31,432 nt of DNA from IMG/VR virus record IMGVR_UViG_3300010885_011782, positions 1 to 31,432 of that record; one strand, given 5' to 3'. The stretch is from a virus. Shown in pieces: positions 1,047 to 27,880 of this stretch. The notes under the pieces are model-generated. The model was not told the DNA's origin and did not search any database. It was given only the letters and a program-made list of their open reading frames with translations. How positions within the stretch are numbered: the first letter of the stretch is position 1; every line of letters starts with the position of its first letter. A program made the translations under genes and the position numbers.

Positions 1047-4000
1047 ATGCTTAATATTTGGACACAGCCGTCAGGATACACTTGGTCAACTAATCAATTT
1101 GGATTTGATAATGGTGCAACCTATTTCGATCAACAACATACAATATTTGATGTTGGCCCTATTGTGGAGCGAATTAGTGTATTGTTACCATTACCTGTTG
1201 TTTTACCTACCGTAATTCCAACAACTGCAAATGCAGTACCATACGACGGTACTGGGCATCATCCTACTGCGCCTTTACGTAACAGTGCAGGATCTCCTTT
1301 CCTCCGATACCCTATAAACAGTTATATAGATAATGTATATGCTATGCGTACTGATTTGCCTAATGCACGTACAGTAAGTAATTTAGTAGTATGGGACCGC
1401 ATCAACGGCGGCGAACAATTTGATCCTTCTGGATACAGTGGATTCATGTATGCATGGGGACAATTTATAACACACGAACTAGAATTTGCTCGCGGCGGCA
1501 CTGTCGATATTAGCGTAACTGTTCCAAGCGACGATACAAATTTAACGCCCGGCAGTCGCATACCAGTTACCCGTAGTGCTGTTGTTTTTAATACTGGAGT
1601 TAATAACGTATTAGCAAATTTTATAAATGACACAACAGGCTGGATTGACGGAACTGTTATCTACGGTTTAGCATATCCTCCAGGAGTTCAACAAGGCTCA
1701 ACGGTGTTTCAGAATCCAGTTAATTTACGAGAAGGTGGAAGAAATGCCACTACTGGTAAATTGTTAACTTCGGGCAGTGGATTGTATGCTCCCGTTGATC
1801 CTGCTACAGGTATGTTTATTTTCGGAGACCCTAGAGGAACAGAAAATCCAGATCTAGCATCCGTACAAACTTTAATGATTCGAGAACATAACTGGCATGT
1901 TGCAAGATTAACTTTGCAAAACCCGGGTTGGAGTGGTGAACAATTATATCAACGTGCCCGTGCATTAGTGATTGCAGAAGAACAAATTATTACATACAAT
2001 GAATGGGTTTCAAAAGTAGTTGGAGCCGGTGCGATTCCGCCGTATACTGGATTTAAATCTAATATAGATGCTACTATAAGAATAGAATTTGCGGCAGCTG
2101 CCATGCGATTTGGGCATAGTATTGTGTCCGGCGCACAAGATAGAATAGACGAACAAGGTAATATTACTGAATCATTAACTTTGGGTCAAGCGTTCTTTTT
2201 AACACCTGCACAATTTGAACGTAATGGCGGCGCTGACGGATTTTTACGTAAGTTAGGTGCAGATATTTCAAACAAATTAGATGTATACATTATTGAAGAT
2301 TTACGTAATTTATTAAATGATCCACCGGCCGCATTAGATTTAGCAACTACTAATATCCAACGTGGGCGTGATTTAGGATTACCTAGCTTAAATCAAATGA
2401 GACAAATATTAGGGTTATCCGCGTATACAAGTTTTGAACAAATAACCACAGACGTTACCATTGCAAACGGATTAAGAGCGGCATACACTAACATAAACGA
2501 TATCGATTTATGGGTAGGAGGTCTGGCGGAAAATCGTGTTAACGGTGCAATGGTTGGGCCTACATTCCGTGCTATTATGATCGATCAGTTTACAAAATTG
2601 CGTGATGGCGATTCGCTATGGTGGGAAAATAAATTATGGAGTCCTGAAGATTTACAATGGATTAAAGGTACTACATTATCTGACATAATTTTACGCAATA
2701 CTAATACCCAGGCCATGCAAGCAGATGCATTTGTAGCCGTAGAAAGAGCAGATCTTTATAACGGAACTGTTCCAACTATATCAGCTAGAACATATCCTTC
2801 TGCATTAGGCGTTCCACCTGCACCAACTAACCCAATAACATTCTCAATAATCTCTGGTGCATTACCTCCAGGATTGGCGGTTGTTGGCAATACCATAAAA
2901 GGTATACCATACGGAGTTGTACGAGATACTACATACACATTTTGTATACGTGCTAGCGACGGGAAAGACATTGCTGACAGAACATTTAAGATTAAAGTTG
3001 CCACCGGTGGGCCGCCGGAATGGCAAACGGCTGGAGGATTATTACCAGTAGGTACAAATAATCAAAGGTACATACTAAACAATAGTTTTATTAATTATTC
3101 AATAGTTGCTAAAGATTTAGATAATCTGCCAGTTACATACTATATTGCCAGCGGTGATGGCGATCTTCCGCCCGGTGTAACATTAACTCCAACCGGTACA
3201 TTAACTGGATTTGTAAATCCAGTATTGGCTATAACACAAGCTGTAACTGGCGTCGGAGCATTTGACCAAGATTTATATGATAGTGGTTTTTATGATTTTG
3301 CTAGCAGACCTACTAACGGTTATGATTCATACATATATGATCAGCAAACTTTTGATTTTAGTACTCCAACATTGCCGCCAAAAAGTATTAATCAAAGATA
3401 CGAATTTATTGTTACTGCGGTATCAGGTAACAAAATAACTAAAAGAATGTTTGGTATTTTTGTGGTAAGTCCTGAATTATTAACTGCGGACGATGCGGCT
3501 ATTTCCGATGATACCACAGTATTCACCGCAGACGTTACACCACTTGAAGCACCGTTATTTGTTAATGATAGAAATTTAGGTATTGTTAGAGCCAATAATT
3601 ATATCACTCTTGAAATTAGCACATTTACAAGTAGTACAACTGTTAATCCCACTTTTAGTATTTTAAACTCTGCTCCCGCATGGATTGCATTTACGCAGTA
3701 TACGATCGATACCGCTGTTACATATTTTGGATCAATTTATATATGTACTACTGCTCATAAATCATCCGGTACCTTTAATGCAATAATTAACAATATCACG
3801 TATTGGGTTAAACAAGCGTTGCCTCCCGGGTTGGCATTTTCTCCGGTAGGATCGATTGTATACTTGGCAGGATTTATTCCCTTCCAAACTAATATTAGTA
3901 AAACATACACCTTCACTATACTTGGAACTAGAGTTGGCGAAGATGTTCAACCAGCAGTTACTAAAAAAGTGTTTACAGTAACAGTTATTGGAGAAATTAA

Positions 4001-5333
4001 TAATACTATTTCGTGGATCACCGGGCCTAACTTAGGTGAGATTCCAGCAAACTATAATAGTAATTTAAATGTACAAGCTACTGCTCAAGATTCAAGTGTG
4101 ATATTAATTTATAGTTTAGCAAGCCAACCATCAGAAATTGGACTACCTCCGGGATTAAGTCTAGATGTCACTGGAGAAATTACTGGAAAAGTTAATCAAT
4201 TTGGTGTTGCAAATATTTCAAGAATAACTACTTTTGAAAACGGTAATTGGTATTTGGATAGGCATTTTACCACAATTGACGTTAACCATCAATATGACAT
4301 TATTGGAAAAAGAGGTTTAATATTATTTGATCAAGACACAGGTTTTAATATTGACCGTGGTACTACTACATTTGATAGGATTTATAAATTTACAATTCAA
4401 GTAACTGACCAGTACGGGTATGCTATAAGCAAGCAACAATTCCAATTAAAAGTAAGTACTCCTAATCAGATATTGTACTCTAATATTAGAACACAACCAT
4501 ATTTAAAACCTACGCAACGTAGTTTATGGACTACATTTATTAACGATCCTACTATATTTTCAATTAACAGTATATATAGACCAGCTGATCCAAATTTTGG
4601 AACCAGAACAGATTTAGGTATGCTGGTATATGCTGGTATTGAAACCAAACAAGCGGCGGCTTATGTTGGGGCGATGGGGTTAAACCACAAAAATAAAAGA
4701 TTCCGTTTTGGATCTATAAAAAAAGCTGTGGCTAAAATAAACAATATAACTGCTTACGAAGTAATTTACGTAGAAATGATGGACCCATTAGAAGCTAACG
4801 GAAATGCGTTGCCAAATACTATCAAGTATAATACATCGCGCAGTTTAAAAACTACAGCAGATATTAGTAACGCCATATTAGTCGGCGCTGTAGGGAATAA
4901 CATTGCCGAGCTTGATGCTAATATTGCAACCATGAATCTTGCAGAATCTTGGTTAGACCGCCCTATTGATAATGTTACTGTAGATAGTAATGCGTTTCAC
5001 GTAAGTGACACAACTACGAACACATTCTACCCTAGCAGTATTACCAATTGGCAACGCAATATTGAAAACGTAGGCTTGGCAGAACGTAACTATTTGCCCG
5101 TTTGGATGCGTACAATCCAGCCAGGCGAAAAACAACAACTAGGATTTAAATTGGCTGTTCCGCTATGTTACTGTAAACCAGGCACAGCTGACAGCATAAT
5201 TTTAAACATAAAACACAGCGGTTTTGACTTTAGAACACTGGATTATACAGTGGACCGCTACATAATAGATTCTGTGGACGGATATTCAAACGATAAATAT
5301 CTAGTGTTCAGAAACGATAGGATAACCGTATGA
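1047..5333 (+). CDS. Giant virion-type protein with animal haem peroxidase domain and He_PIG-like repeats
   Basis: 1428 residues. Residues of about 65-580 match the animal haem peroxidase family (myeloperoxidase/peroxidasin type). Visible hallmarks are the distal-histidine motif WGQFITHELEF with H143, the catalytic GDPRGTENPDL segment with R263 and E266, the REHN helix after it, the proximal-histidine motif RFGHSIV with H357, and NIQRGRDLGLPS with N436. The Asp that forms a haem ester in mammalian enzymes is Thr here (T142), so covalent haem attachment at that point is not expected. About four putative Ig/cadherin-like (He_PIG) modules follow, with LPPGL cores near residues 606, 705, 924 and 1030, then a unique C-terminus. 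No signal peptide is visible. It sits between fibre-like genes and overlaps the next one by 4 bases, so it is probably a virion component. The peroxidase call is strong. Enzymatic activity, and how haem would be acquired, are unknown. Confidence 0.88.
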   Translation: MLNIWTQPSGYTWSTNQFGFDNGATYFDQQHTIFDVGPIVERISVLLPLPVVLPTVIPTTANAVPYDGTGHHPTAPLRNSAGSPFLRYPINSYIDNVYAMRTDLPNARTVSNLVVWDRINGGEQFDPSGYSGFMYAWGQFITHELEFARGGTVDISVTVPSDDTNLTPGSRIPVTRSAVVFNTGVNNVLANFINDTTGWIDGTVIYGLAYPPGVQQGSTVFQNPVNLREGGRNATTGKLLTSGSGLYAPVDPATGMFIFGDPRGTENPDLASVQTLMIREHNWHVARLTLQNPGWSGEQLYQRARALVIAEEQIITYNEWVSKVVGAGAIPPYTGFKSNIDATIRIEFAAAAMRFGHSIVSGAQDRIDEQGNITESLTLGQAFFLTPAQFERNGGADGFLRKLGADISNKLDVYIIEDLRNLLNDPPAALDLATTNIQRGRDLGLPSLNQMRQILGLSAYTSFEQITTDVTIANGLRAAYTNINDIDLWVGGLAENRVNGAMVGPTFRAIMIDQFTKLRDGDSLWWENKLWSPEDLQWIKGTTLSDIILRNTNTQAMQADAFVAVERADLYNGTVPTISARTYPSALGVPPAPTNPITFSIISGALPPGLAVVGNTIKGIPYGVVRDTTYTFCIRASDGKDIADRTFKIKVATGGPPEWQTAGGLLPVGTNNQRYILNNSFINYSIVAKDLDNLPVTYYIASGDGDLPPGVTLTPTGTLTGFVNPVLAITQAVTGVGAFDQDLYDSGFYDFASRPTNGYDSYIYDQQTFDFSTPTLPPKSINQRYEFIVTAVSGNKITKRMFGIFVVSPELLTADDAAISDDTTVFTADVTPLEAPLFVNDRNLGIVRANNYITLEISTFTSSTTVNPTFSILNSAPAWIAFTQYTIDTAVTYFGSIYICTTAHKSSGTFNAIINNITYWVKQALPPGLAFSPVGSIVYLAGFIPFQTNISKTYTFTILGTRVGEDVQPAVTKKVFTVTVIGEINNTISWITGPNLGEIPANYNSNLNVQATAQDSSVILIYSLASQPSEIGLPPGLSLDVTGEITGKVNQFGVANISRITTFENGNWYLDRHFTTIDVNHQYDIIGKRGLILFDQDTGFNIDRGTTTFDRIYKFTIQVTDQYGYAISKQQFQLKVSTPNQILYSNIRTQPYLKPTQRSLWTTFINDPTIFSINSIYRPADPNFGTRTDLGMLVYAGIETKQAAAYVGAMGLNHKNKRFRFGSIKKAVAKINNITAYEVIYVEMMDPLEANGNALPNTIKYNTSRSLKTTADISNAILVGAVGNNIAELDANIATMNLAESWLDRPIDNVTVDSNAFHVSDTTTNTFYPSSITNWQRNIENVGLAERNYLPVWMRTIQPGEKQQLGFKLAVPLCYCKPGTADSIILNIKHSGFDFRTLDYTVDRYIIDSVDGYSNDKYLVFRNDRITV

Positions 5334-9421: not shown

Positions 9422-9861
9422 AACAAAGATTAATCGATGCATATATGACTACTGCGGAAACTTTCGCAGAACTCAGTCATGCTCGTCGCTTACACGTTGG
9501 GGCTATTGTAGTTAAGGATGACAGGATTATCAGTATTGGTTATAATGGCATGCCAGCAGGTTGGGATAACGATTGCGAAGATCAAACATACGATGAAGAC
9601 GGATTTCACATTACACTAAAAACTAAACCAGAGGTATTACATGCTGAAACGAATGCCATTGCGAAACTTGCTAAATCTAACGAATCTGGTTTGGGTGCTA
9701 CTATGTTTATTACCCATGCTCCATGTCTGGACTGTGCCAAACTTATCTACCAAAGTGGTATTAGCCACGTTTTATACCGTGACGCTTATAGGGATATTGG
9801 TGGCGTCACGTTTCTCGAGAAATCGGGAATCGAAGTCACACAAGTAAAAAAGGGCCCGTAG
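9418..9861 (+). CDS. cd: dCMP deaminase
   Basis: 147 residues of the zinc-dependent cytidine/dCMP deaminase family. The zinc site is complete: H75-A-E77 (ligand and proton shuttle) and P102-C103-x-x-C106. The N-terminal half has LHVGAIVVKDDRIISIGYNGMPAGWDNDCE, typical of phage dCMP deaminases, with C53 possibly adding a second metal ligand. The enzyme makes dUMP for thymidylate synthesis and so raises dTTP for phage DNA. It begins at an ATGA overlap with gene 44 and its stop codon lies in the loop of the terminator. Length is slightly below T4 Cd (193 residues), from a shorter insertion region. Confidence 0.92.
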   Translation: MKQRLIDAYMTTAETFAELSHARRLHVGAIVVKDDRIISIGYNGMPAGWDNDCEDQTYDEDGFHITLKTKPEVLHAETNAIAKLAKSNESGLGATMFITHAPCLDCAKLIYQSGISHVLYRDAYRDIGGVTFLEKSGIEVTQVKKGP

Positions 9862-9869
9862 GCCCTTTT
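9847..9869. terminator. Bidirectional intrinsic terminator between dCMP deaminase and phoH
   Basis: AAAAGGGCC (9848-9856), loop CGTA, GGCCCTTTT (9861-9869): a perfect 9-bp stem. There are T residues after it on the plus strand and six A residues before it, so it has a T tract on both strands. It separates two convergent genes. The dCMP deaminase stop codon spans the loop-stem junction, showing tight packing. Confidence 0.88.
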
Positions 9870-9894: not shown

Positions 9895-10614
9895 TTATTC
9901 TCCATAAACCGCTAACACCTCCTTCACGGCATTATGGCGTTCGATGTCCTTGGCGTCAAATCGAATGATGTCGATATGTTCCAAATATTCCTTTTGTTCG
10001 AGTAGATTACAAAAATCAATCAGACCATTATCGCTCACTCGGTCTGCTTGTGCTAGATCGCCTGTCACCACCATCTTGGAACCCTCTCCTAAACGGGTTA
10101 GTAGCATTTTCATTTGATTCTGTGTAGCATTTTGCATTTCATCTGCAACTATGTATGCGTTTTTAAATGTACGTCCTCGCATATAAGCGAGTGGGCTTAT
10201 TTCAATAGTACCTTCCTCCAGCATATTTGCTATTTCTTTTTTCTGATAATATTCGCCCAATACATCGAATATAGGTCTCGTCCATGGCGCCATTTTTTCA
10301 TTTAAGTCGCCTGGTAAAAAGCCTAAATCCTCATCTACGGACACGGCGGGTCTTGTTACCACGATTCTATCAACTTTACCTTCCTGAAACAATTTAATCC
10401 CGTACTGCACAGCCAGCATGGTTTTACCCGTACCGGCAGGGCCAATAGCAAGTACTATGCTAGTATGCTCTGCGTACAATTTTTGTAGATATAGTTTCTG
10501 ATTAGCGTTACGTGCATTAATACTCACACGTTGCTTTTTTGCCGGAAGATACGGCTGGAAATCAATGATATTAACTTCTGATGTAAAACGCTTTTTCACT
10601 CGTTGTTTACTCAT
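9895..10614 (-). CDS. phoH: PhoH-like P-loop ATPase
   Basis: 239 residues, the only leftward gene of the window. It has Walker A GPAGTGKT (58-65), a VVTRPAVSVDEDLGFLPG segment (85-102) diagnostic of the PhoH family, Walker B IVADEMQN (155-162), and MVVTGDLAQAD (181-191). This is the ATPase core, matching host PhoH (about 350 residues) without its N-terminal extension. PhoH is widespread in marine phages. A helicase or RNA-related ATPase role is suggested by family membership, but its job during infection is unsettled. The ATG is preceded on its strand by AGGAG with 8-base spacing, lying in a hairpin. Family call is very secure. Confidence 0.95.
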   Translation of the reverse strand: MSKQRVKKRFTSEVNIIDFQPYLPAKKQRVSINARNANQKLYLQKLYAEHTSIVLAIGPAGTGKTMLAVQYGIKLFQEGKVDRIVVTRPAVSVDEDLGFLPGDLNEKMAPWTRPIFDVLGEYYQKKEIANMLEEGTIEISPLAYMRGRTFKNAYIVADEMQNATQNQMKMLLTRLGEGSKMVVTGDLAQADRVSDNGLIDFCNLLEQKEYLEHIDIIRFDAKDIERHNAVKEVLAVYGE

Positions 10615-10622
10615 CTAGTTTG

Positions 10623-10683
10623 CTCCTACTCTTATAAAAGTAGGACTTGTAGTGACCGCCCTTGATGACTACAGAGGTCCTAC
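10623..10683 (-). promoter_or_regulatory. phoH leader with mutually exclusive hairpins over the ribosome-binding site
   Basis: Read on the minus strand, three related segments occur in order: GTAGGAC (10683-10677), GTCCTAC (10646-10640) and AGTAGGAG (10630-10623), the last containing the Shine-Dalgarno sequence. The middle segment can pair with the first (7 bp, extended by 6 bp TGTAGT/ACTACA) or with the last (7 bp TCCTACT/AGTAGGA, 8-base loop), which would hide the ribosome-binding site. This is the layout of a two-state translational switch. The pairing is seen directly; the switching is inferred. Confidence 0.55.
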
Positions 10684-10688
10684 ACTAT

Positions 10689-10696
10689 TATTTAAC
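10689..10696 (-). promoter_or_regulatory. Possible late-type promoter motif for phoH
   Basis: On the minus strand the sequence is GTTAAATA, 6 of 8 matches to TATAAATA. Transcription starting a few bases downstream would begin at the first arm of the phoH leader hairpin. I see no convincing sigma70 -35/-10 pair for phoH in this gap. The motif is weak and could be chance in AT-rich DNA. Confidence 0.3.
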
Positions 10697-10739: not shown

Positions 10740-10747
10740 GCTAAATA
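10740..10747 (+). promoter_or_regulatory. T4-type late promoter motif (GCTAAATA)
   Basis: GCTAAATA lies 25 bases before the ATG at 10773. It is part of a 13-base string CTAAATAAGTATA that also occurs ahead of gene 43 at 28228. It would drive the operon that ends with the lysis genes. Confidence 0.55.
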
Positions 10748-10772: not shown

Positions 10773-11408
10773 ATGCACCATGACATATTAGACGTGATAC
10801 AAAACGTTCAAGAACTATACGAAAACAACAGTAATCTAGCCGCTTTAAAAGACTTTGAGCGTGTGCTAGATGAAATGGATATGTACGTATTTAAAAACTG
10901 GATCGACGGTGAATTAGCTTACGGCCCACGAGTTGATCGCCATTGGATTACAGCAGGTTTTATGTGGCCAAAAGATAAAATGCCAGATCCAGAAGCAGGT
11001 AAAAGATTACTAGAACTAGGATGCCGAGTCACATATCAAAAAAGCCACTTAATAGAAGCACGTAAAATACGTAAACAAGAAGACATACGCCCAGGAACAA
11101 AGAAAGGTAAATTAGATCGCAAGCCTGTATGGGTGGTAGAAGTAACTATGCCTAAGAAATTAGTGTTTGATGTATACAAAGGTTACATGAACAAGATGCG
11201 CGAAGAGATGGGTGCTGACGGATTACAAACCAATACTCCAACTCCATTAGATACTACTGCCGCGCAACAAATTAGTCCTATGCCAAGCGCACCTCCAATG
11301 GGTGGAGCACCGGGTGGAGCTGGTGGAGCACCTACTCCAGGAGCAGGAGGTGGAGCACCTATGGGAGCACCTCCAGGCGGCGCCGCACCTATGGGGGCAC
11401 CAGCATAA
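10773..11408 (+). CDS. Conserved T4-like phage protein with Pro/Gly/Ala-rich tail
   Basis: 211 residues. Residues 1-140 form a conserved domain with MHHDILDVIQNVQELYE, VLDEMDMYVFKNWIDGEL, RHWITAGFMWPKDKMPDP and LDRKPVWVVEVTMPKK. I believe this family occurs across marine T4-like phages without a firm function. Residues 165-211 are low complexity, built from PMG/APGG/GAP units. A virion or assembly role is plausible from its position first in a late operon, just ahead of another conserved protein and the lysis genes. The ATG lies 25 bases after a late-type promoter motif. I do not assign an activity. Confidence 0.7.
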   Translation: MHHDILDVIQNVQELYENNSNLAALKDFERVLDEMDMYVFKNWIDGELAYGPRVDRHWITAGFMWPKDKMPDPEAGKRLLELGCRVTYQKSHLIEARKIRKQEDIRPGTKKGKLDRKPVWVVEVTMPKKLVFDVYKGYMNKMREEMGADGLQTNTPTPLDTTAAQQISPMPSAPPMGGAPGGAGGAPTPGAGGGAPMGAPPGGAAPMGAPA

Positions 11409-24994: not shown

Positions 24995-27880
24995 ATGGAC
25001 TTTAAAAAATTATTAGAAAATTTGGAAAGAATAGAGAACGAAGCTCTATTAGAACGTTATCATTTAAAAGATGTGGAAGCAACTGCTGACATCGATGATA
25101 AAGCAGAACGTTATGCCGCGTTAGCTAAATTGGCTAAGTCAGGTGGCTATGCTGGTATGTTTGATCCAGTATCTGGTAATTTTATCGATACGAATGGCAA
25201 TGCCGCTTGGATCGGTGCTTACAAAGCAGAAGTTCAACAACTAGCACAGCACAGATTAATTCCGCCAGCCGCAAGAGAAAAAACTAGTCACTTGCTAGGC
25301 CGTATGGGCATGGATGAAAAAGAAGCAGGATCTATCCAGAAAGATGTTCAGGCTAGAGAGCAAGCTATTGAAAAAGCAACGGGCTTTATCAATAAAGCGT
25401 TAGAAACATTTAAGTCGGCAACTCCTACTAAAACTAGTGAATCAAAAAATCTATCAGGTCTTGCACAAGCACTAACAGAATCGTTTGGTTATAACTTTGA
25501 AAATTTAATCGAAAGCATTAGCCAAGCAGATCACAAATATATTAAACAAGTTGTAGCATTAGTTAAAGATATAAAAAACGATGACGATGTTCCAGAATTC
25601 ATGGGCAAGTACAACATGTATATGCAACGCAGAGATATCCTAGTTGAACAAATTACTAAACTTGTTGCTAGAATTAAAGCAAAGCAAATAAAGAAAGAAT
25701 ACAGAGAAAGCCAAGGCAATACGTTAGGTTTAACAGAACGTACATATTTGTATTGGGAAGGCGGAAATCAATTACTAGAATTCCATCTTTATTATACACC
25801 TGCTGGCGAATTGATTGAATACAAATGGACTGATCGTGAAGATAAACCATTCGATACTGGCATCCTTCTTGAACAGAAAAAAGGTGAACCATTAGGATTC
25901 TGGGGGAAGATTGGCCAAGGTATAACTGATACTGGTCGCGGAGTTGCTAACGGTGCTACATTTGGTTACAACGATAATATTGTTGCCGGATTAAAATCAC
26001 TATTCAAAGGTACTAAGTATGCTGATGAATTACATCGCGAATTTCAAATTACCCAAGAAATTAAAAAACGTAGTCCTGTTTTATTCACTACTGGTAAACT
26101 TATAGGACAAGTTGCTAGTACTATGGCTGCTACAGCCGCAGGGGGTCCTATGGCAGGACTTGCATTAACAGCGGCGCAGGTTGGAGATTCGTTTACCGAC
26201 ACCACTGACAAGTGGCATGCACAGACTGATTATGAAAATCAACAAAAGAAGAAAAATGAACCTGTAGATCCAACTAAAAAGAAAAAATCAAAGCCTTTGG
26301 ATTCGCAGGGACATCCGCAGGGTGGAACACCAGATATGCCGCAGGGTGGAAATCCTAATGTAAAAACTAATACAGGCACAGGTGATCAGATTCAACAAGG
26401 AAGACCAGGTGGCGCTCCAGATCCAGAAGTTACAAAAATGCAACAGGCATTAATTGCCGCTGGTTTTTTGCCAAAAGGCGGCGCTACTGGTGTAATGGAC
26501 GGTACTAATAACGACCCAACTATTAAAGCCATTAAAGCATATAAAAAAGCAAAAGGACTTCCAAGTGATGCTGATGCGATTGCCGCGTTAGTAGGTGTTG
26601 CGGCTCGAGAAGTAGATACAGGTAAAGAACAAGCAAAAGAAAGTATTGTATATTCTAGCATGTCCGACGCCGAACGTATGGCTTACATGCGTGACAAATT
26701 AGCATTGTTAGAAGCAGGCGAAATAATAGCGGCTGAAGCATTACCATTTCTTGCTAGATTTGCTGTTGGTGAAGCTGGTTATGCAAGTATTTTAGCAAGA
26801 CTTGGAATTACTACCGCGGTCGATGCTGAAAGAATTTTAGCACCGTTAGCTAGAGTAAGTTCTATCGTAGGCAGAGGTGGCAGTGGCATACGAACAGTTA
26901 AAGTAGCAGGACAAGAATGGACAGAAGTTGGCGGCTTCTGGCATACCACAAAAGCTGGTAAAACATATACACAAAGTGCCCAACAACTTGCATCTGAAGT
27001 TAAATTAGAAGCTGAAGTGGCTGCTGGAAGATTGCATCCACCAGGACCACACACTCCAGGTGCTAATGCGCCACACACTCCAGGTGCTAATGCTCCAGGT
27101 GCTAATGCTCCAGGTGCTAATGCTCCAGGTGCTAACGGTTCAAATATTAATACTAATAATATTAACATAAACATCGGTGGACAGCCAGCTACAGCCGCAC
27201 AAGCCGCAACTGCGCTAGGTGTTCCGGCGGCTGAAGCGGCAAGTACTGTAGCGGCCATAACAAGAACTGCTCGTGGTACACAATTCTTGAGAAGAATCAT
27301 GCTTATGGCTCGTAGGGGTGTACGAGGAATAAGAAGATTTACATGGAGTAGAATTTTTATTACAACGGCTCTAGCGTTGACTGCGTTCCATTACATGTTT
27401 AATGACAATGGAGATCTTGTTCCAGAAGTTGGCACCGATGATCAGGACGATCCAACAGTAGTAGTTACTCCGCCAGTTACTCCGCCAGTTACTCCGCCAG
27501 TTACTCCGCCAGTTACTCCGCCAGTTACTCCGCCAGTTACTCCGCCAGTTACTCCGCCAGTTACTCCGCCAGCAGTTCAAGAAGTAGATGCAGATCTCGA
27601 AGAACTCAAACAATTGATTAAACAATATTTTGATGCGTTCCCAGCTGATCCTTTAGATCCAGCATTAAAAGCCGATATTGAAAAATTAGGTATTAAATTA
27701 CCAGCGGTGGAAGCAGGCACAGGTGACCAATCAGTAGGGAATGGTACTGGAACTAGGCCATCGTGGGCGCAAGGTCCATATGTTGATCCTTCTATAGTTG
27801 CTGCCGGGGAAAAGAATGGTAGTATCGATCCTTACAACGGTGGAGATGTAAATAGAACATCAGTAAGACAAGTTAGGTAA
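24995..27880 (+). CDS. Large modular virion-associated protein with PG-binding-like domain and proline repeats
   Basis: 961 residues. The start MDFKKLLENLERIENEALLE offers an LLE cleavage site near 20. Residues 1-270 are helical. An Ala/Gly hydrophobic stretch (about 370-395) follows, then Pro/Gly/Lys linkers. A domain at about 475-530 (VTKMQQALIAAGFLPKGG, then TIKAIKAYKKAKGLPSD) resembles a peptidoglycan-binding type 1 repeat. Next come tandem PGANA repeats, an Arg-rich helix (RRIMLMARRGVRGIRRF) leading into a hydrophobic FITTALALTAFHYMF (about 788-802), and nine TPPV repeats. This mix of wall-binding, basic membrane-inserting and extended segments would suit a protein that travels with DNA through the envelope, but no homologue with proven function is recognised. 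Confidence 0.55.
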   Translation: MDFKKLLENLERIENEALLERYHLKDVEATADIDDKAERYAALAKLAKSGGYAGMFDPVSGNFIDTNGNAAWIGAYKAEVQQLAQHRLIPPAAREKTSHLLGRMGMDEKEAGSIQKDVQAREQAIEKATGFINKALETFKSATPTKTSESKNLSGLAQALTESFGYNFENLIESISQADHKYIKQVVALVKDIKNDDDVPEFMGKYNMYMQRRDILVEQITKLVARIKAKQIKKEYRESQGNTLGLTERTYLYWEGGNQLLEFHLYYTPAGELIEYKWTDREDKPFDTGILLEQKKGEPLGFWGKIGQGITDTGRGVANGATFGYNDNIVAGLKSLFKGTKYADELHREFQITQEIKKRSPVLFTTGKLIGQVASTMAATAAGGPMAGLALTAAQVGDSFTDTTDKWHAQTDYENQQKKKNEPVDPTKKKKSKPLDSQGHPQGGTPDMPQGGNPNVKTNTGTGDQIQQGRPGGAPDPEVTKMQQALIAAGFLPKGGATGVMDGTNNDPTIKAIKAYKKAKGLPSDADAIAALVGVAAREVDTGKEQAKESIVYSSMSDAERMAYMRDKLALLEAGEIIAAEALPFLARFAVGEAGYASILARLGITTAVDAERILAPLARVSSIVGRGGSGIRTVKVAGQEWTEVGGFWHTTKAGKTYTQSAQQLASEVKLEAEVAAGRLHPPGPHTPGANAPHTPGANAPGANAPGANAPGANGSNINTNNININIGGQPATAAQAATALGVPAAEAASTVAAITRTARGTQFLRRIMLMARRGVRGIRRFTWSRIFITTALALTAFHYMFNDNGDLVPEVGTDDQDDPTVVVTPPVTPPVTPPVTPPVTPPVTPPVTPPVTPPVTPPAVQEVDADLEELKQLIKQYFDAFPADPLDPALKADIEKLGIKLPAVEAGTGDQSVGNGTGTRPSWAQGPYVDPSIVAAGEKNGSIDPYNGGDVNRTSVRQVR
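27056..27139 (+). repeat. 15-bp tandem repeat encoding PGANA
   Basis: Five copies of CCAGGTGCTAATGCT (the first and last slightly varied), the first separated from the rest by 9 bases (CCACACACT). They encode an extended PGANA linker within the large protein at 24995. A 15-bp unit keeps the frame, so copy number can change without disrupting the protein. Confidence 0.9.
27464..27571 (+). repeat. 12-bp tandem repeat, nine perfect copies, encoding TPPV
   Basis: Nine identical head-to-tail copies of GTTACTCCGCCA with no substitutions. They encode a proline-rich rod just after a hydrophobic segment. Perfect identity suggests recent expansion or ongoing slippage, and copy number may vary between relatives. 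Confidence 0.95.

Follow-up and report, generated by a model that had tools for sequence, protein, structure and literature searches.

The hok mRNA of the hok/sok system carries a metastable 5' hairpin, and its folding pathway has been conserved by coupled covariations, according to work cited in PMC6733600. Transient structures also time translation in the leader of the MS2 maturation gene and in the aapA3 mRNA of H. pylori (PMC6733600). Closer to the phage considered here, late promoters of T4 adjoin hairpins that hide the Shine-Dalgarno (SD) sequence at genes e, soc, 49 and I-TevI, and genes 32 and 43 of T4 and RB69 are controlled by autogenous operators (PMC3014915). In translational riboswitches, as collected in Rfam, a shared strand takes part in either of two helices, and one of the two hides the SD; a review of post-transcriptional control in T4 points out that this phage has no functionally characterised riboswitch and suggests looking in related genomes (PMC3014915).

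The gene phoH is a widespread accessory gene in aquatic phages. PhoH proteins have been reported to be RNA helicases, some of them sequence-specific (PMC7824862), and the function of phoH in cyanomyoviruses is not known (PMC2984593). Our literature searches found no report of a phoH leader RNA. Here we analyze the phoH leader in a 31,432-nt stretch of DNA of a T4-like phage (IMG/VR record IMGVR_UViG_3300010885_011782), hereafter the window. The reading that we favor, with moderate confidence, is that the phoH mRNA starts with a conserved, phoH-specific bistable leader which would control translation as a metastable folding-pathway switch, with PhoH itself as the likeliest reader. By analogy, such a leader would work most like the metastable hok and MS2 maturation leaders, in a setting resembling that of T4 gene e. 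It is a member of none of the compared systems: the hairpin arm is kept, the anti-SD lies upstream, and there is no conserved aptamer.

Anatomy of the phoH leader and its late promoter

In the window, phoH is the sole clear minus-strand gene among structural, replication and chaperone genes, with plus-strand genes on both sides. Its leader occupies positions 10683-10615 of the minus strand and forms the predicted 5' part of the mRNA, running 5'-GUAGGAC (10683-10677), CUC, UGUAGU, CAUCAAGGGCGGUC, ACUACA, A, GUCCUAC (10646-10640), UUUUAUAAGA, GUAGGAG (10629-10623), CAAACUAG and AUG (10614-10612). We call ON the state in which helices P1 and P2 form and the SD is free, and OFF the state that combines hairpin E (S1:S1') with hairpin H2 (S2:SD). 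The elements are as follows, the lake clade being the group of leaders close to that of the window (see below).

10689-10694, minus strand: core of a T4-type late promoter, TAAATA, assigned from motif and spacing; predicted start at 10683
10677-10683, minus strand: S1, GUAGGAC, SD-like, at the predicted 5' end of the mRNA; its partner is S2 (ON) or S1' (OFF)
10668-10673, minus strand: 5' arm of P2, UGUAGU; 98.7% of the cells of the helix are paired, with a two-sided AU-to-GC change in 2 sequences
10655-10666, minus strand: P3 (AUC/GGU) with the apical loop AAGGGC; lake leaders hardly vary in AUC-N-GGCGGU, as seen in the alignment and a loop-unbiased scan
10649-10657, minus strand: S1', GGUC-A-CUAC, the alternative partner of S1 (hairpin E), overlapping the 3' arm of P2
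10648-10653, minus strand: 3' arm of P2, ACUACA, from the covariation alignment of lake leaders
10640-10646, minus strand: S2, GUCCUAC, the strand shared between S1 (P1) and the SD (H2)
10630-10639, minus strand: loop of H2, UUUUAUAAGA, the ends of which lengthen the S2:SD helix
10623-10629, minus strand: SD region, GUAGGAG, from the sequence and the S2:SD alignment
9895-10614, minus strand: phoH coding sequence, 239 aa (PF02562, E 2e-74; phrog_170)

The first hairpin consists of 7 bp between S1 and S2 (P1, GUAGGAC/GUCCUAC) and 6 bp of P2 (UGUAGU/ACUACA), 13 bp in all, around a 14-nt loop with AAGGGCGG. S2 is also complementary to the SD region (UCCUACU/AGUAGGA), which ends 8 nt before the phoH start codon at 10614. 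The three segments, the 13 bp and the 14-nt loop are exactly those of the original prediction, read off the minus strand, and the sequence confirms that S1:S2 and S2:SD exclude each other, as it had proposed. A third pairing had been missed: GUAG-GACC of S1 and the adjoining base pairs with GGUC-A-CUAC of S1' (10657-10649), which is found in the predicted minimum-energy fold and excludes the inner hairpin. Compared with dinucleotide shuffles, the first hairpin has a z-score of -3.2, the SD hairpin one of -3.9 (0/200) and the whole leader one of -3.1 (1/200).

The motif TAAATA lies at 10694-10689 of the minus strand and is followed by a 5-nt spacer and then S1. The T4 late motif TATAAATA spans positions -13 to -6, and its first T is poorly conserved in relatives (PMC1524935). 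Because the TAAATA core and the spacer match this geometry, the predicted +1 is position 10683, so that the first G of S1 should open the transcript. The two-state proposal would have fallen with a start downstream of 10677; the predicted start is upstream of that position. TAAATA or TAAGTA precedes phoH in 272 of 279 loci; among these 272, 244 have 5 nt between the motif and S1, and 25 have 4 nt. Within the window TAAATA is threefold rarer than expected (18 copies found, 53.7 expected), with several copies just 5' of genes, which fits a promoter motif avoided elsewhere. A second copy, on the plus strand (10742-10747), precedes the divergently oriented gene for a virion protein at 10773 (phrog_12928) by ~25 nt, and TATTTA, the reverse complement, recurs 5' of many related phoH leaders. 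The region between phoH and the virion-protein gene thus looks like two back-to-back late promoters.

A late promoter directly 5' of an SD-sequestering hairpin is the arrangement of T4 e, soc, 49 and I-TevI (PMC3014915), where the phage is likewise T4-like, and the phoH hairpin could accordingly be a gate that silences early read-through RNA while the late promoter yields a translated version. At T4 e, late transcription starts within the structure, so that the late RNA lacks the 5' arm, whereas the predicted phoH start, at S1 and upstream of all helices, retains both arms of the SD hairpin together with a competing 5' strand. Early read-through is also unlikely, because plus-strand genes flank phoH, which stands alone on the minus strand. 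We consider such a gate highly improbable.

Three features elsewhere in the window were recorded in passing. A terminator-like palindromic hairpin, AAAAGGGCCTACGGGCCCTTTT (9848-9869, minus strand), lies between the convergent phoH and dCMP deaminase genes and probably serves both directions. Among the structural genes, a 1428-aa ORF (1047-5333, plus strand) encodes a complete animal haem peroxidase domain (PF03098, E 1.3e-109) and, after it, an Ig-like stretch; it has no PHROGs match and is unusual for a phage. A 961-aa ORF (24995-27880, plus strand) has a weak peptidoglycan-binding match and a long PPVT repeat near the C terminus.

Distribution and covariation of the leader

A search of IMG/VR with the phoH protein gave 80 close loci, a more distant query added 80 others, down to ~60% identity to that query, and a loop-pattern search gave 119 stretches. 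After removal of duplicates, ~155 distinct phoH leaders remained, 118 of them close to that of the window ('lake') and 37 more diverged ('marine'); these names are handles for leader groups only and not habitat assignments from sample records. Judging from these sequences, many uncultured aquatic phages share the conserved leader. In the lake group it always lies immediately 5' of phoH, save where the contig ends first, and the marine leaders have the same architecture (late motif, 5 nt, S1, inner hairpin, S2, SD) in different sequences.

A covariance model built from 85 lake leaders had exactly one strong match per phage contig (20/20 contigs, up to 356 kb), the next matches being weak or on the opposite strand of the same site. 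Compared with other late leaders in the same loci, phoH leaders have a mean fold z of -2.75 versus -0.33, and their 5' end is paired in 98% versus 37%. Searches of Rfam at the gathering threshold and at E up to 5 found no family, only low-scoring chance matches. The leader is absent from the isolates checked, the nearest of which has a PhoH of at most 54% identity, and the architecture was not seen in the phoH leaders of Sinorhizobium phage Phosso and Agrobacterium phage Atu_ph07. A single loop-pattern match in bacterial genomes, without late motif or phoH, was judged to be due to chance.

The conserved loop bears on the proposal that a metabolite bound at AUC-N-GGCGGU stabilises the ON fold. 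The motif is near-invariant in 71 distinct lake contexts that were found with the loop left out of the search pattern, and, as in translational riboswitches, a shared strand alternates between two exclusive helices, one of which hides the SD, although S2:SD is the weaker and the overlap is lost in one branch (see below). The phoH leader differs from riboswitches in its single gene context, the lack of an Rfam match and the lack of a family-wide aptamer: marine relatives with the same architecture carry other loops (UGCAAA, UACAUU and others), and a loop that is kept in the lake clade yet changes between clades argues against a shared metabolite aptamer. The loop, at ~6 nt, is also small for an aptamer. 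The ligand site of the original prediction is thus not supported across the family, while the lake clade, where the loop is near-invariant, could still have one; as an explanation of the leader, a metabolite riboswitch appears improbable. Two other roles for the loop were tried and rejected. Trans pairing of GGCGGUC elsewhere in the window gave 3 matches with 1 mismatch allowed, against 2.15 expected, and one of these was the leader itself; a pairing of J1 (CUC) with the apical loop, read by eye on the alignment, is unsupported by leaders with CAC.

In a sequence-only MAFFT alignment of the 85 lake leaders, 98.9% of the P1+P2 cells are standard pairs and 4 pairs show two-sided changes, which 1/500 shuffles reach. 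Compensatory versions of P1 include GUAGGGC/GCCCUAC and GUAGAAC/GUUCUAC, and RNAalifold independently recovers the P1+P2 hairpin. For H2, 98.8% of the cells are paired and one pair has changed on both sides; pairs formed by the loop extend the helix inward by a mean of 3.14, versus 0.63 in loop shuffles (n=83, lake clade), and S1 cannot explain this extension. A palindrome selected at the DNA level or chance complementarity might be invoked for such segments. The excess of G-U over A-C cells, 163:5 for the first hairpin and 83:4 for H2, indicates selection on the phoH-strand RNA rather than on a DNA palindrome, and conservation in relatives speaks against chance. S1:S1' is paired in 97.8% of the lake cells but is near-invariant there and shows no covariation, so that the support for E comes from the wider set.

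For the wider family, we compared duplex energies of true segment pairs with those of pairs permuted between leaders, a test that does not model the tree. Among leaders at least 20 edits apart (n=16), z was -6.0 for P1, -5.0 for E and -2.7 for H2 (p=0.007), the p-values serving as guides because the tree is not modelled. No permutation of 5000 was as good for either P1 or E, as expected of coupled covariation under the same caveat about the tree, and E was significant within the GUAG-starting group alone (n=10; 0/5000 permutations as good, tree likewise not modelled). Control pairings were mostly flat, but S2 with phoH codons reached p=0.025 at 20 edits and 0.016 at 14 edits, near the value for H2. 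Covarying S1/S1' pairs include GUAGGGCA/UGCUUUAC, GUGUUCG/CGGACAC and GCAGGGAG/CUUCCUGC. On the PhoH tree, the split between GUAG and GCAG is one event, and several S1/S1' changes fall inside the GUAG clade.

On this comparative evidence, the three leader segments are not a product of chance: S1:S2 covaries strongly, S1:S1' does so as well, and S2:SD more weakly, H2 being the weakest helix. The conservation and covariation that the original prediction had proposed to look for in related phoH leaders are therefore present, if more weakly for S2:SD, and its two-state RNA is supported more strongly than could be seen from one sequence, since both alternative folds appear to be kept by compensatory change in the relatives. 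The alignments thus support two selected states, ON and OFF.

A hairpin at the 5' end of the ompA leader protects that mRNA from 5'-end-dependent decay. The main rival to a translational switch is that in phoH, too, only the 5'-terminal hairpin matters, guarding the late mRNA from such decay at +1, with the complementarity to the SD arising as a by-product of an SD-like S1. S1 stands at the predicted +1 in nearly all leaders, and no other element is as conserved or covaries as well as P1+P2. This 5' hairpin is retained even in a branch of three leaders (L226, L227 and L228), where it (GUAGUA/UACUAC) and an SD hairpin occupy separate strands, so that the two are compatible: here the anti-SD and S2 are separate segments and the S2/SD overlap is lost. 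This branch breaks the shared-strand rule, and thus not every member of the family has the switch. In Pseudomonas phage 30-2, a relative of PA5oct, the late-type phoH promoter is immediately followed by a simple 5'-terminal hairpin (GUAAAGAU...AUCUUUAUAC) whose sequence is unrelated, a further point in favor of 5'-end protection. What stabilisation leaves unexplained are the covarying S1:S1' pairs, which exclude P2, and the S2:SD covariation with its loop extensions. We consider it unlikely as the whole explanation, although it may be an additional role of this hairpin.

Predicted folding pathway and proposed control of PhoH synthesis

The competing folds are close in predicted energy. Across 106 lake leaders, the medians are -19.5 kcal/mol for P1+P2, -17.8 for P2+H2 (S1 free) and -22.3 for E+H2; P1+P2 and P2+H2 thus lie within ~1.5 kcal/mol of each other (median), and E+H2 is ~2.8 below P1+P2. 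As the chain of the window leader grows, the predicted fold passes from E at 36 nt to P1+P2 at 44-56 nt and to E+H2 from 60 nt. In prefixes ending before S2, the thermodynamic model has S1 paired in 97% of lake leaders (edit distance of 6) and 77% of marine leaders, and in 80% and 70%, respectively, at an edit distance of 14, the latter values being only moderately above the ~50% seen in shuffles. P1 is formed in all prefixes that run through S2. At full length, lake leaders are predicted mostly OFF (75% at an edit distance of 6, 40% at 14), whereas 87% of marine leaders are ON; either the resting state differs between the groups or the model misjudges the energies by a few kcal/mol.

An RNA thermometer and a transcription attenuator were considered as well. 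The original prediction had named temperature among the possible signals, and some lake leaders have a short U run after S2. The predicted accessibility of the SD stays level between 5 and 45 C (0.25-0.29 in the lake leaders, 0.20-0.23 in the window leader), which argues against a thermometer and does not bear out temperature sensing; no terminator-like site was called within the leader, and the marine leaders have no U run. Together with the DNA palindrome and chance complementarity discussed above, these explanations are largely refuted, and they are the least probable of those considered.

Under the favored folding-pathway switch, the late promoter would start the RNA at S1, and in the growing chain S1 would pair first with S1' (hairpin E). 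Once S2 emerges, S1 would move to S2, giving the P1+P2 hairpin with a free SD (ON). When the SD emerges in turn, S2 may pair with it and S1 return to S1' (OFF). Such a metastable translational switch would set when, or for how long, each phoH message is translatable, and the leader thus probably switches or times the amount of PhoH made.

This predicted pathway would resemble that of hok in mechanism, no sequence relation being claimed. In hok a 5'-terminal hairpin forms first and is then replaced, as the prefix folds suggest for phoH; in both, alternative pairings are kept by coupled changes, and the outcome in phoH, too, would be the availability of the SD. In contrast to hok, phoH is not a toxin-antitoxin gene and has no known antisense RNA, and S2 lies upstream of the SD, whereas the anti-SD of hok lies downstream. 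As in the MS2 maturation leader and aapA3, co-transcriptional refolding would open or close a time window for ribosome binding, although here the phage is a DNA phage with a late-type promoter, the leader is ~72 nt and the order of refolding is computed only.

A phage-encoded protein may read the leader, in line with the phage regulator of the original prediction, and PhoH, an RNA-helicase-like ATPase, would be the likeliest trans-acting reader, closing an autogenous loop. We rank it first among candidates since the leader is specific to phoH and RNA helicase activity has been reported for PhoH proteins; PhoH possibly controls its own synthesis, gene specificity being the sole and circumstantial argument. 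The autogenous operators of genes 32 and 43 of T4 and RB69 (PMC3014915) are likewise gene-specific structured leaders and involve nucleic-acid-related phage proteins. The phoH leader differs from them in having neither a pseudoknot nor a UAAC loop, in offering two alternative folds rather than one operator, and in being known from sequence alone. A bolder version, in which this is a new family of phage mRNA leaders with a conserved two-fold metastable pathway, and PhoH determines its own level by remodelling the leader of the late phoH mRNA, is doubtful.

Few RNAs show visible conservation of both their alternative folds, and the phoH leader comes with dozens of natural variants. A conserved RNA devoted to the control of this one gene would imply that the level or timing of PhoH late in infection matters, and the phoH leader may provide a handle on the RNA target of PhoH.
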